The position numbers and the translations under genes are program-made. From an uncultured Holophagaceae bacterium (GTDB taxonomy: Bacteria > Acidobacteriota > Holophagae > Holophagales > Holophagaceae): a DNA stretch of 45,545 nt. This document shows positions 9,423-14,241 of the stretch, piece after piece. The notes below the pieces were generated by a model. It was not told the origin of the DNA, did no database searches, and saw only the letters and a program-made list of their open reading frames with translations. Each line of letters opens with the position of its first letter. Position 1 is the first letter of the stretch. The stretch is from assembly GCA_903873655.1 (NCBI GenBank), contig CAIQPH010000316.1:1-45545 (forward strand). Direction: 5' to 3'.

Positions 9423-10505
9423 TCATTCCGTTCCAGCCCCTAACCTCAAATGGACCGTGGTTCCCCGGCCCATCTGGCTCTCGAGGAACAGCAGCCCCCC
9501 GTGGGCCACGATGATCCGGTGGCAGACGGCCAGCCCCAGGCCGGTGCCCCGCCCGAAGGTGCTGAAAAAGGGATCGAACACCTTCGACAGCGCCTCGGCG
9601 GGGATGCCGCAGCCATTGTCGGACAAGGTGACATGCCAGCAGGGCTGTCCATCCATCTGCTCCTCGACGGCGGCCAGGACGACGCGGGGCTTTTCCGAAT
9701 CCTCCAGGGCCCGGAGGGCGTTCTGAACCAGGTTCTGGGCGACCTGGCGCAGCAGATCAGGATCACCCCGCCACGTGGCCTGGGCGGGGATCTGGTTCTT
9801 CCAGGGGACGGCTTCCACCAGGGTGGTTCCCCGCAGTACCTCCTCCCAGAAATGTTTCAAGGGGATGGATGCCATTTTGGGGTGGAGATCCCGGCTGAAG
9901 GCCAGGGTGTTACCCACCAGATTGTTCAGCCGGCCCACACTCTCCTGCATCTTGCGGGCGAGTTCCATGGGGCCAGCCTGATCGGCCAGATCCTCCACCA
10001 GCATGCCGGAGAAGAGGGCCAGGCTCCCCAGAGGGTTCCGGATCTCATGGGCCAATTCCGCGGCCATGCGCCCCATGGCGGCCAGACGGTCCTCCCGAGT
10101 GGCCTGCTGAGCTCGCAGCACGGCCTCCGTCACATCCCGGAGGGTGACGATGGCGCCCCCGTGCGGCGCGGAACGCCGCTCCTCTTCGAAGATCAGCTCC
10201 CGGCCTTCGGGGGTCTGGAACCGGCGCTGGCCGCCGGGGCTGCCGGGTTCCCAGGGGGCCGGATCCTGCAGGAAACAGCCTTCCAGTCCCTGAGGCCGGT
10301 TGGTGAAACGCAGAGAACCATCTTCGGCCAGGACCCAGATCGCGAAGGGGACGGCCTCGATGACGGTCTGGAGTTCGCCCTGGAGCTGACCGAGCTGGGT
10401 CTGGAGCGCCTCGTAGCGCGCCTGGAGGTGCTCTGAGGCTGCCGTGAAGGCTTCAAAGGCTTCCAGCAGCTGCCGGGGGTCCGGATGGGCCTGGACCTCG
10501 GTCAC
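9423..10505 (-). CDS. Soluble PAS-type sensor histidine kinase
   Basis: This 360-residue kinase has a coiled-coil-prone start (about 10-50), one degenerate PAS-like domain (50-130), HisKA with His153 in ELAHEIRNPLGSL, and the HATPase with N-box Asn262 (QNALRAL), DNGCGI (296-301) and GTGLGL (320-325). No transmembrane segment or receiver domain is seen, and no response regulator is adjacent, so its partner is unknown. The GTG start overlaps the stop of the Gly-Gln/HEAT gene by 4 nt (GTGA), so the kinase is translationally coupled to it. The frame is open up to 10925 but that part is the shadow of the HEAT gene. Confidence 0.88.
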   Translation of the reverse strand: MTEVQAHPDPRQLLEAFEAFTAASEHLQARYEALQTQLGQLQGELQTVIEAVPFAIWVLAEDGSLRFTNRPQGLEGCFLQDPAPWEPGSPGGQRRFQTPEGRELIFEEERRSAPHGGAIVTLRDVTEAVLRAQQATREDRLAAMGRMAAELAHEIRNPLGSLALFSGMLVEDLADQAGPMELARKMQESVGRLNNLVGNTLAFSRDLHPKMASIPLKHFWEEVLRGTTLVEAVPWKNQIPAQATWRGDPDLLRQVAQNLVQNALRALEDSEKPRVVLAAVEEQMDGQPCWHVTLSDNGCGIPAEALSKVFDPFFSTFGRGTGLGLAVCHRIIVAHGGLLFLESQMGRGTTVHLRLGAGTE

Positions 10506-13500
10506 GGCGCCACCGGCCCCTGCAGAAGGCGCTGCAGCAGGTCGCGCTCCTCGCCCTTCGGCTCGGTGGCCGCCATCTTCTGGAGCGCGGCCCTGGCCTC
10601 GGGCGTCCCCAGGGCCACCAGAGCCTTGGCCGCCGCCATGCGGATGGCTGAGGGTTCCCCGGGATTGAAGAACCCCTTCCGGCGCATGCACTCCAGCAGG
10701 GCTGGCATGGCTCTGGGAGAGGCGATGTGGCCGAGGGTCTCCAGCGCCTGGATCCGGAGGCGCTCCAGCACCCGCTTGTCCTGGGCCAGTTCGGAGATCG
10801 GTCCCACGCTTTTTTCGGAGTGCAGTTGCCCCAGGGCGAACAGGAGCTCCTGCATGGTCTCCGCATCCGTCTCCTTCATCCGGGCCAGCAGATGCGGCTC
10901 CGCAGCCAGTCCGCACAGCTTCCACAGGGCGCGCACCGCCGCCCGGCGTACCCGGGGTTCGGGATGGTTCACCTGAGGTGTGATCGCGTGCAGGCAGCTG
11001 GCATTGCCGAGTTCAGCGAGGAGCGTCAGCGCGTTCCGGACCAGGTACCAGCTGGATGACCCCAGGGCGGTCAGGAGCGAGGGCAGGGCGGTCGGTCCGA
11101 TGTAGCGGATTACATCGACCAGCCGTCCCCGGTTGGTGCGGTCCTGCTCTCCTTCGAGGCGGGCCAGCAGGTGCTGGAGGAAGGCGTCCCCGGTCGTTTC
11201 GAGGTACGAGGGCGCTTCCTGGCTCAAACGGAGCCGATCCAGGCTAAGGAAGTGGTCGATCGCCGCATCCAGCAGCTCGGGCCGCAGGAGGGCCGCGTGC
11301 AGACGGGTGATGGCCTCGCCACGCCAGGGCTGCTGGTTGCCTTGGAAAGCGCAGAGGGATTCGAGTTCATGGAGGTCCGCAAGGGCACTCAGGAGTTCCC
11401 CGCGCAGGACCTGGGCCACGAGCAGAGCTTCCAGAGCCTCAGTGATCCAGCGGTGGATGGTGAGTTCCTGCTCCGAGGGGAAATGGGCCCTCAGCCCCCC
11501 GGTCAGGGGGCCGACACCCTCGGCAGGCAGCCCGGGTCGATGGGCCCACCGGGCGATGCCAGCCAGGGTCCGCGCGCCCTTCATGCGGAAATCCGGCCAG
11601 TCGCTGTGGAGTGCATCCAGCAGCACGTCCTGGATCCGCAGGAACTCGTCGTAGCGGCGGAGGTCGAGCAGTTCGCGCAGGAGCGCCAGCCGCTGTTCCT
11701 GGCTCAGCTCAAACAGGAAGCCGTGTTCCAGGATCTTGAGGAGCTTGGCTTCCAGGCTGAGGTCATCCCAGGCCAGATCCCTCAGGATCGGTTCGGCCTG
11801 GGTTGGATCCATCCCACGGGTCCTCAGATGGGAAGCGAAGGCCCGGACCAGGGCTTTCCGGTCGGGAAGCGGATTCAGGATGCCCTGGATGGGGCCCCGG
11901 AGTTGCGGCCAGGAAGCCCCGCCGGAAAGCGCGGTCATGGTGGCGGCGGCCAGAACTTCGGCGGACAGGGCTTTCAACCCCAGGGCGAGCCCTTCGGGGG
12001 CACCGGGCTGGTTCGTCAGGCCTGCCATCAGGCTCAGCTGGACTTCAGGCGTCAATCCCATGAGGGCCGAGCGCAGTGCGGAAAGCTGCTCGGGCGTGGG
12101 GCCACCCTTGCGAATGCCCAGGGCCTTCTCAAGGGGGCCGAGTGCCCCAAGGTCCGCCGGTCCGAGGGAGCCGAGGGAAGCAAGGTCCTCGCCCTCCTTG
12201 CCACCACCGGAGGGTTCCTCCAGGCCGCGCAGGGCGGACCCGGCGGACACTCCCTGGCCCAGGGCCTGGAGGTTGGCCAACAGATTGCCGGCAATGTGGT
12301 CCCGGTCCGGAAGCGCCCGCAGAGCGTTCTGAATCGGCCCCTGCAACTGTTCCCAGGAGGCCCCCTGGGTGCGCGCAGAGCTGACCGCAGCGGTCAGGAG
12401 TTCGCCGGCCAGGGCATTGATCCCAAGCTGAAGGCCCGAGGGGAGTTCCTTCGGGAGGCTCGACACGCTCATGAGGAGACTCATCTGCTCCATCGGCGTC
12501 CATTTCATCAAAGCCTGGCGGAGGGCGCCGAGCTGGGCTGAACTCGGCTTGTCCTCGCTGAGGCCGAGTTCGTGGCTTAACGCGAAGAGGCTGCCGAACT
12601 CGGCCGGGCCGAACCCCCGCGCGATCCAGGGCTGCCCTTGGCCGTGAAACTGGCCCTGGCCTTGGCCCTGGCCTTGACCCTGGCCCTGGCCTTGGCCCTG
12701 GCCTTGGCCCTGGCCTTGGCCCTGGCCCTGGCCCTGGCCTTGGCCCTGGCCTTGACCCTGGCCTTGACCCTGGCCCTGGCCTTGGCCCTGGCCTTGACCC
12801 TGGCCTTGACCCTGACCTTGACCCTGACCGAGGCCCTGACCTTGACCCTGACCTTGGCCGAGGCCCTGGCCGAGACCTTGACCCTGGCCCTGACCTTGGC
12901 CCAGACCCAGACCCTGACCTTGGCCCTGACCCTGGCCCTGGCCGAGACCCTGGCCCAGCCCTTGACCCCAGCCCAGCCCACGCTCGGCGGACCCCTCAGA
13001 AGAACCGCCACCCTTGGCCATGGAGGCCATGAGGGCTTCGCGGATCAGCTCGGCGAGTTCCTCATTGGAGGCCTCACCCTTGGCCGGCGAGGCTGGATTC
13101 AGGAGGGGCGCCTGGTCGCCCGATCCAGTAGCCTCCTGGCCCTCCCGGATCTCCTGATATTTGACCTGCGCCACTTTGATGTGCACGACCTCGCTGGCTT
13201 TCAGGAACGCCTCGAATCCTCCCAGCTCCTCCAGCTTCTGCGGCTTGGTCGCCAGCCCCTGAAGGAAAACGAGGTATTCCTCTGGTGTCACCCCCCACTC
13301 GAAGATGAACCCCCCGATCGCGCGTTCGGACACCTGCTTCACGACTGCCACCACGTGGGGGCTCTTGGTGTCCTGGATCTGCCCATCGACGAAGGCCTTG
13401 GTTCCGGAGACGACGAATTGGAGCTTCCGATGTTCTTCGAGCCAGCGGTCCATCGCCGCGTAGGCCGAGGCCAGGGCCTGCTGGGCCCGGGGATGGGCTT

Positions 13501-13567
13501 CGGTGTACATCTGCACGGCCTTGAGGGCCACGGCGAGCGTCTGGGCGATCTGTTGGAAGTCGCTCAT
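10502..13567 (-). CDS. HEAT-repeat protein with a long Gly-Gln repeat tract
   Basis: The 1021 residues fall into clear parts. Residues 1-145 form an alpha/beta N-terminal domain (LAVALKAVQMYTEAHPRAQQAL) of a kind I associate with HEAT proteins of deltaproteobacteria and Acidobacteriota. Residues 146-196 are a linker. Residues 197-312 are almost purely alternating Gly with Gln or Leu. Residues 320-437 and 468-584 are two copies of one domain, sharing LxALRxALM and GASWxQLxGPIQ. Alpha-helical sequence follows, with HEAT repeats from about 815 to 1015 (RRAAVRALWKLCG, LRIQALETLGHIAS). There is no signal peptide or membrane segment. A scaffold role between the HD protein before it and the kinase after it is inference; both junctions are 4-nt overlaps. 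Confidence 0.85.
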   Translation of the reverse strand: MSDFQQIAQTLAVALKAVQMYTEAHPRAQQALASAYAAMDRWLEEHRKLQFVVSGTKAFVDGQIQDTKSPHVVAVVKQVSERAIGGFIFEWGVTPEEYLVFLQGLATKPQKLEELGGFEAFLKASEVVHIKVAQVKYQEIREGQEATGSGDQAPLLNPASPAKGEASNEELAELIREALMASMAKGGGSSEGSAERGLGWGQGLGQGLGQGQGQGQGQGLGLGQGQGQGQGLGQGLGQGQGQGQGLGQGQGQGQGQGQGQGQGQGQGQGQGQGQGQGQGQGQGQGQGQGQGQGQGQGQGQGQGQGQFHGQGQPWIARGFGPAEFGSLFALSHELGLSEDKPSSAQLGALRQALMKWTPMEQMSLLMSVSSLPKELPSGLQLGINALAGELLTAAVSSARTQGASWEQLQGPIQNALRALPDRDHIAGNLLANLQALGQGVSAGSALRGLEEPSGGGKEGEDLASLGSLGPADLGALGPLEKALGIRKGGPTPEQLSALRSALMGLTPEVQLSLMAGLTNQPGAPEGLALGLKALSAEVLAAATMTALSGGASWPQLRGPIQGILNPLPDRKALVRAFASHLRTRGMDPTQAEPILRDLAWDDLSLEAKLLKILEHGFLFELSQEQRLALLRELLDLRRYDEFLRIQDVLLDALHSDWPDFRMKGARTLAGIARWAHRPGLPAEGVGPLTGGLRAHFPSEQELTIHRWITEALEALLVAQVLRGELLSALADLHELESLCAFQGNQQPWRGEAITRLHAALLRPELLDAAIDHFLSLDRLRLSQEAPSYLETTGDAFLQHLLARLEGEQDRTNRGRLVDVIRYIGPTALPSLLTALGSSSWYLVRNALTLLAELGNASCLHAITPQVNHPEPRVRRAAVRALWKLCGLAAEPHLLARMKETDAETMQELLFALGQLHSEKSVGPISELAQDKRVLERLRIQALETLGHIASPRAMPALLECMRRKGFFNPGEPSAIRMAAAKALVALGTPEARAALQKMAATEPKGEERDLLQRLLQGPVAP
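12634..12981. repeat. Hexanucleotide repeat tract encoding (Gly-Gln/Leu)n
   Basis: On the minus strand about 350 bp consist of degenerate 6-bp units (GGCCAG, GGCCAA, GGTCAG, GGTCAA, with some CTC-type Leu codons). Since the unit is 6 bp, gain or loss of units changes protein length without changing frame. The 5' part mixes Gln and Leu and the 3' part is uniform Gln, which suggests the uniform part expanded more recently. The tract leaves all frames open and creates false ORFs on the other strand. Confidence 0.95.
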
Positions 13568-14241
13568 GGGGGTGTCATCTCCAAGGGGTCAGACCATTCC
13601 CGGCGCAATTGGGCATAGTGAGCCTCGATGAAGGCGAGCCGTCGCCGGCCCTCCTCTCTGGCCAGTTCGGTGTTGAAGCAGGCAGTAATGCTGCGGGCCA
13701 GATCCAGCCAGGCTTCGCCGCGGTGGAGAATTTCCCTGGTGGTGATGGGCTGGAAAGCCCCACTGATGCAGCCGAAGTGGATGAGGCTGGCGGCCCCGAT
13801 CTTGCTGAGCTTGTCGCAGTCCCAGAGACATGCCGTTTCGATGGGTTCAAGCCGCTGCCGGAGTGTCAGTCCCACATGGTGCTCGATGGCGTGGTGGACC
13901 GCCGGGATCTTGCCGGGCGGGAAGTCCGTGCCCGCGAGAATCTCCTCCACCCGCGCGGAGGCATCCAGGGCATGCGTATCCTTGGCATGAGGCTCCTTCA
14001 GGCGCTTGGCCACGTCGTGCAGCCAGGCCGCGCACTCCACCACCTCCAGGTCCGCACCGACCGCGGGCGCCAGCCAGCGGGCCAGCAGCACGGCGGCATA
14101 GGTGTGCTCGAAACGGTAGTTGAAGATGGGCCGGTAGGTCCCTTCCACCTCGTGGCCGATGCCCCAGAACCGGATCGCATCCGCATCCGAGAAGCACCGC
14201 AGCGCCTGTTCGCAGGCGGTCCGCCAGGGGCTGGGGTTCAT
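13564..14241 (-). CDS. HD-domain phosphohydrolase
   Basis: The 225-residue protein has a metal-dependent HD fold: His46 in FEHTYAA, the His75-Asp76 pair in AAWLHDVAKRL, His116/His117 and His121/His122 in AVHHAIEHHVG, and the closing Asp in DCDKLSKIGA (141-150). This arrangement fits HD nucleotide or nucleic-acid phosphohydrolases rather than HD-GYP cyclic-di-GMP phosphodiesterases, because no GYP motif is seen. The substrate is unknown. It overlaps hutH before it and the Gly-Gln/HEAT gene after it, each by ATGA. Confidence 0.85.
   Translation of the reverse strand: MNPSPWRTACEQALRCFSDADAIRFWGIGHEVEGTYRPIFNYRFEHTYAAVLLARWLAPAVGADLEVVECAAWLHDVAKRLKEPHAKDTHALDASARVEEILAGTDFPPGKIPAVHHAIEHHVGLTLRQRLEPIETACLWDCDKLSKIGAASLIHFGCISGAFQPITTREILHRGEAWLDLARSITACFNTELAREEGRRRLAFIEAHYAQLRREWSDPLEMTPP

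Follow-up and report, generated by a model that had tools for sequence, protein, structure and literature searches.

A long Gly-Gln tract, probably a disordered tether, in a HEAT-repeat protein of an uncultured Holophagaceae bacterium

Introduction

Why does a bacterial HEAT-repeat protein contain more than 100 residues of little but alternating glycine and glutamine? The tract lies in a window of 45,545 nucleotides (the whole stretch of DNA that was analysed) from an uncultured Holophagaceae bacterium. An original prediction, made from the letters alone, placed a Gly-Gln/Gly-Leu tract of ~115 residues at 12634-12981 and held that a folded N-terminal domain lies on one side of it and duplicated domains with HEAT repeats on the other. 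Both points were borne out: the location agrees within a few bases (the units span 12650-12979 and a tail reaches 12632), and Pfam, the structural model, and the comparison of orthologues all give this arrangement. We found no paper on a (GQ)n HEAT protein in the open-access literature, and the terms that we tried for bacterial Q-linkers also gave nothing.

Results

The HEAT-repeat protein and its neighbors

The features of the locus are:

13564..14241, minus strand: HD-domain phosphohydrolase gene (PF01966, 3e-9), which overlaps the HEAT gene by 4 nt (ATGA)
10502..13567, minus strand: HEAT-repeat protein, 1021 amino acids, ATG start, containing the Gly-Gln tract (open reading frame; Pfam)
13148..13567, minus strand: N-terminal alpha/beta domain, residues 1-140 (pLDDT mostly >90)
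12614..13006, minus strand: predicted disordered inter-domain linker, residues 188-318, hypervariable among orthologues (pLDDT <50 at 188-317)
12650..12979, minus strand: Gly-[Gln/Leu/Trp] x55 tract, residues 197-306 (unit count; Tandem Repeats Finder)
12650..12829, minus strand: unbroken (GQ)30 section of the tract, residues 247-306 (unit count)
12269..12613, minus strand: module D1, residues 319-433, a surplus copy in this genome only (49% identity to D2)
12167..12268, minus strand: short D1-D2 linker, residues 434-467, with a low-confidence core at 449-463 (model)
11825..12166, minus strand: module D2, residues 468-581, adjoining the HEAT solenoid (at most 63% identity to the single module of orthologues)
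10505..11824, minus strand: C-terminal alpha-solenoid / HEAT region, residues 582-1021 (Pfam; all-helical high-confidence model; PDB)
9423..10505, minus strand: sensor histidine kinase (HisKA + HATPase_c), whose GTG start overlaps the HEAT stop by 4 nt (GTGA)

The protein matches three Pfam families above their curated cut-offs: HEAT_2 (1.5e-24, 86.5 bits, cut-off 27.7), HEAT (3.8e-8, 33.3 bits, cut-off 23.5), and HEAT_PBS (23 bits, cut-off 20.9). AlphaFold gives a confident all-helical model for residues 321-1016, and the structure matches in the PDB include alphaRep, karyopherin, and PP2A-A chains. The model and these matches fit the stacked superhelix of helical hairpins that typifies HEAT-repeat (alpha-solenoid) proteins, and we assign the protein to this class. 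We rejected a specific identity as a PBS lyase, NblB, or CpcE: the scores were 39.2 bits for NblB and 33.1 for CpcE, and the NCBIfam equivalog cut-offs are 300 and 330.

Residues 1-140 had no matches in Pfam or NCBIfam. Against the PDB, the best Foldseek E value was 0.63 and the best VIA-align Z score was 3.2, neither a confident fold match. This domain (13148-13567, minus strand) is nevertheless kept across the Holophagaceae, has a MYTxxHPR motif, and is unnamed in the libraries that we searched. Among the 77 genomes of the family, the N-terminal domain was detected in 65, and the C-terminal part in 67 (66/76 without this one); the nearest orthologues are ~62% identical to the HEAT protein.

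The genes run in one direction in the order HutH, HD hydrolase, HEAT protein, histidine kinase, with 4-nt overlaps (ATGA, ATGA, and GTGA). Of 52 loci, 48 have the HD gene next to the HEAT gene, and 39 have the kinase gene next to it. This arrangement supports the view that the HEAT gene belongs to a conserved, coupled unit. The HEAT protein is probably an adaptor for signalling; we call it a putative scaffold on the basis of the HEAT fold and the gene order.

An extreme tract of a familiar class

Residues 197-306 are 55 successive Gly-X dipeptides, or 55 Gly, 46 Gln, 8 Leu, and 1 Trp. Beyond these units, a degenerate tail extends to residue 312 (position 12632). The stretch from 197 to 312 (116 residues) contains 57 Gly, 48 Gln, 8 Leu, a single Trp, Phe, and His, and no Tyr, Arg, Lys, Asp, or Glu. 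The Leu units are confined to the N-terminal half of the tract; the C-terminal half is pure GQ.

At the DNA level, Tandem Repeats Finder reports periods of 12, 30, and 42 bp with scores of 267-331, which is far above chance. The original prediction of a 6-bp unit was right in that the tract is built of hexamers, but the array is not homogeneous. Nine hexamer types occur among the 55 units, of which GGCCAG is the most frequent (21), and they follow one another with a pronounced 12-bp period (0/2000 shuffles reached the observed level). The longest exact repeat within the tract is 47 bp.

The tract is in the coding frame: homologous sequence continues in frame on both flanks, and the units differ from each other almost exclusively at third codon positions. 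A chance open reading frame or a wrong strand can be rejected, as homologous domains are in frame on both sides. On the other strand, an antisense open reading frame (12638-13618, plus strand, 326 residues) has Ala-Leu/Thr-Leu repeats that mirror the coding repeat, and automatic gene callers could take this mirror repeat for a gene.

AlphaFold gives a pLDDT of ~31 over residues 188-317, with confident domains on both sides, although this disorder call was built on 40 sequences, none of which align within the tract. As a low-complexity segment between two folded domains that is predicted to be disordered, the tract belongs with the prokaryotic low-complexity disordered linkers. It is real and extreme, yet its class is familiar, that of low-complexity, disordered linkers that arise by repeat expansion.

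Orthologues fill the same site with other sequences

To compare linkers, we defined the linker as the stretch from the N-terminal domain to the solenoid module. The table value for this protein (281 residues) counts D1, and its own linker, without D1, is ~131 residues. In 49 other Holophagaceae genes, the linker has 1-171 residues (median 30). These linkers are hypervariable and mostly Gly-rich, with Ser, Ala, Pro, or Gln as well, and their sequences are poorly conserved while the flanking domains are conserved (linker table versus domain alignment). At the level of this comparison, between species, the proposal that the linker is tunable in length is thus fair.

None of the 49 other linkers contains a GQ tract. 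Also, a search of the 77 genomes for at least 6 consecutive GQ codon pairs gave no other match that codes for GQ. Matches to (GQ)6 in two genomes (G011 and G021) were rejected as GQ proteins: they are antisense to an Ala-Leu-Ser-Leu signal-peptide-like sequence. The original prediction had counted absence from orthologues, together with lack of expression of this copy, against itself. The GQ tract is indeed absent from every orthologue, but the gene and the operon are conserved, and nothing in the sequence suggests that the tract-bearing copy is broken.

Other linkers have gained in-frame repeats of their own: GLGGPGAGGP-type (L055), GAPGFGGPG-type (L053), AYSSGSH-type (L014), and GGQGSS-type (L033, with shorter versions in L036 and L037). 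The orthologous HEAT proteins L055, L053, L033, L036, and L037 resemble ours in having Gly-rich, in-frame tandem repeats at the same site; they differ in that the units and composition are not strict GQ and the module is single. Tandem arrays are ~7 times as dense in the linkers as in the rest of the gene (1.46 versus 0.21 per kb), as counted from ten linker arrays, most of which have two to three copies and three of which score below 50.

The first solenoid module (~115 residues) occurs twice in our protein, as D1 and D2, which are 49% identical. All of the 49 other orthologues that we compared have a single module, so the duplication is found in this genome only. D2 is closer than D1 to the module of the orthologues (up to 63% identity). 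The 49% identity and a tree that leaves D1 and D2 unpaired do not favor a single recent duplication tied to the tract, but pairing them is compatible with the data (AU p = 0.22), so the duplication may be old or recent.

Codon positions and Gly-Gln tracts elsewhere

Among the 55 units, the variants at the first, second, and third codon positions number 0, 0, and 22 for Gly and 1, 9, and 22 for Gln/Leu. That is, 44 of 54 variants are at third positions. In 396 genomes sampled from the Acidobacteriota, (GQ)8 or longer, on either strand, occurred in eight genomes. Besides this tract, four are in the frame of long open reading frames (L066, L071, L072, and L073) and share the third-position bias. 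The other three (GQ)n-type tracts are intergenic (L068, L069, and L070); they are near-homogeneous, with 2-3 hexamer types, and lack the third-position bias. Overall, 108/120 variants are at third positions in coding tracts versus 3/9 in intergenic tracts (Fisher p = 2e-4, as a guide only). Because duplicated units are not independent, this statistic overstates the evidence for selection.

Thus, (GQ)n tracts are also found in Acidobacteriota proteins that are unrelated to the HEAT protein. For instance, a protein from genome G236 (L071:994-3048, minus strand) has 37 Gly-X units in a long open frame, with variation at third positions only. Unlike ours, its flanks are Gln/Ala-rich rather than HEAT repeats, and they had no matches in Pfam or NCBIfam. 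The intergenic tracts (L068:1501-1578, L069:1501-1560, and L070:1501-1614) come from three genomes of one other Acidobacteriota genus; they are near-perfect 6-bp microsatellites with GGTCAG or GGGCAA as the unit, and are candidate length-variable loci.

Simple sequences with scrambled mixtures of codons probably reflect selection at the protein level (PMC1524752), and our tract has the same mixed-codon pattern. Purifying selection may be the cause of the third-position pattern. More broadly, the tract resembles the Gly-rich low-complexity and simple-sequence proteins of prokaryotes, which have been attributed to slippage or recombination (PMC6821194; PMC1524752). It differs in its strict Gly-X alternation over 110 residues, which is unusually long and regular, and the excerpts of these two papers make no mention of Gly-Gln tracts of this kind.

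Discussion

A probable disordered tether at a tolerant site

In our view, the tract is probably a tether, expanded and intrinsically disordered, that joins the conserved N-terminal alpha/beta domain to the HEAT-type alpha-solenoid; the tether role is our reading of the predicted structure. The linker site would tolerate almost any sequence rich in Gly, Ser, Ala, Pro, or Gln, and would repeatedly gain in-frame tandem repeats across the family. In this lineage, slippage or unequal exchange would have multiplied a GGYCAR-type hexamer, in many cases two units (12 bp) at a time; the 12-bp periodicity of the unit order implies that expansion was partly by 12-bp steps. We infer from the sequence that this mutational route was followed by constraint on the protein. 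Selection would have held Gly-Gln while the third codon positions drifted.

The tether would decouple the N-terminal domain from the solenoid and let it reach a larger volume around it. From textbook worm-like-chain values, we estimate that a flexible chain of 131 residues would have a contour length of ~48 nm and a mean end-to-end distance of ~7 nm. Its exact length is probably not critical. Because the sequences at this site are so diverse among relatives, the function probably depends on flexibility and solubility and not on a specific sequence.

The C-terminal linker of FtsZ, which varies among species, offers an analogy of working principle only: FtsZ is another protein, and its linker has another composition and no such repeat expansion. 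Like the tract, which is predicted to be disordered, the FtsZ linker follows a folded domain, which it connects to a part that binds. It has been called intrinsically disordered in a paper that also cites work on its requirement (PMC12607630).

Other explanations

The alternative that survives best, although we still consider it unlikely, is that the tract is a functionless hexamer microsatellite that expanded neutrally in a tolerant linker, so that the regular Gly-Gln pattern merely records the copying of a few hexamers. Its absence from every orthologue fits this, as do the 12-bp periodicity, a sign that units were copied in pairs, and the bare (GQ)n-type microsatellites in the intergenic DNA of other Acidobacteriota. 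But those intergenic cases have just 2-3 hexamers and no third-position bias, whereas the tract has nine and places 44/54 of its variants at third positions. The number of hexamers and the bias suggest age and protein-level constraint.

Another possibility, which we rate as doubtful, is that linker length and composition are an evolving knob for a kinase-linked scaffold, with the 110-residue Gly-Gln tether and the module duplication having been selected because they change the reach of the N-terminal domain.

It is somewhat more doubtful still that the tract behaves like a contingency locus, with gains and losses of whole 6- or 12-bp steps between cells or strains adjusting the output of the operon. 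The linker does vary widely in length among species, and length changes would keep the frame because the repeat unit is a multiple of 3. However, phase-variable contingency loci are marked by a long, perfect repeat array, and these repeats are imperfect and interrupted (nine hexamer types in 55 units, 47 bp as the longest exact repeat). In general, such repeats should change far less readily than pure microsatellites.

We consider it very unlikely that the tract acts as a sticky low-complexity or prion-like segment, making the HEAT protein condense or assemble into amyloid and thereby concentrating the histidine kinase. Gln- and Gly-rich composition does generally resemble that of prion-like domains, and the next gene encodes a kinase. 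But there are few sticker residues (one Trp, one Phe, one His), and the near absence of aromatic residues and lack of charged ones argue against strong phase separation. Also, the alternating Gly would be flexible and would disrupt long Gln zippers. Because the composition is kept in no orthologue, a prion-like role cannot be the function of the family as a whole.

Finally, an assembly artefact or chimera, which the original prediction had named as a way to be wrong, is most improbable of all: the genome is a 3.47-Mb draft in 328 contigs (88.7% complete) and is the only one with the tract and the duplicated module, but the reading frame is intact through both, the neighbors are syntenic, the longest exact internal repeat (47 bp) is shorter than an ordinary short read, and D1 and D2, at 49% identity, are too different for the duplication to be an echo of assembly.

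Implications

The tract is an extreme case, though one that can be understood: with its strict Gly-Gln alternation and free third codon positions, it would illustrate neatly how constraint on the protein shapes a low-complexity sequence. If linker length and composition are an evolving knob after all, then the family re-invents repeat-built linkers at one site. The ~50 orthologues share the same folded domains, have linkers of 1-171 residues, and include some independent expansions, which makes them a clean natural series. With this series, one can ask which properties of disordered linkers are under selection in bacterial scaffolds associated with signalling.
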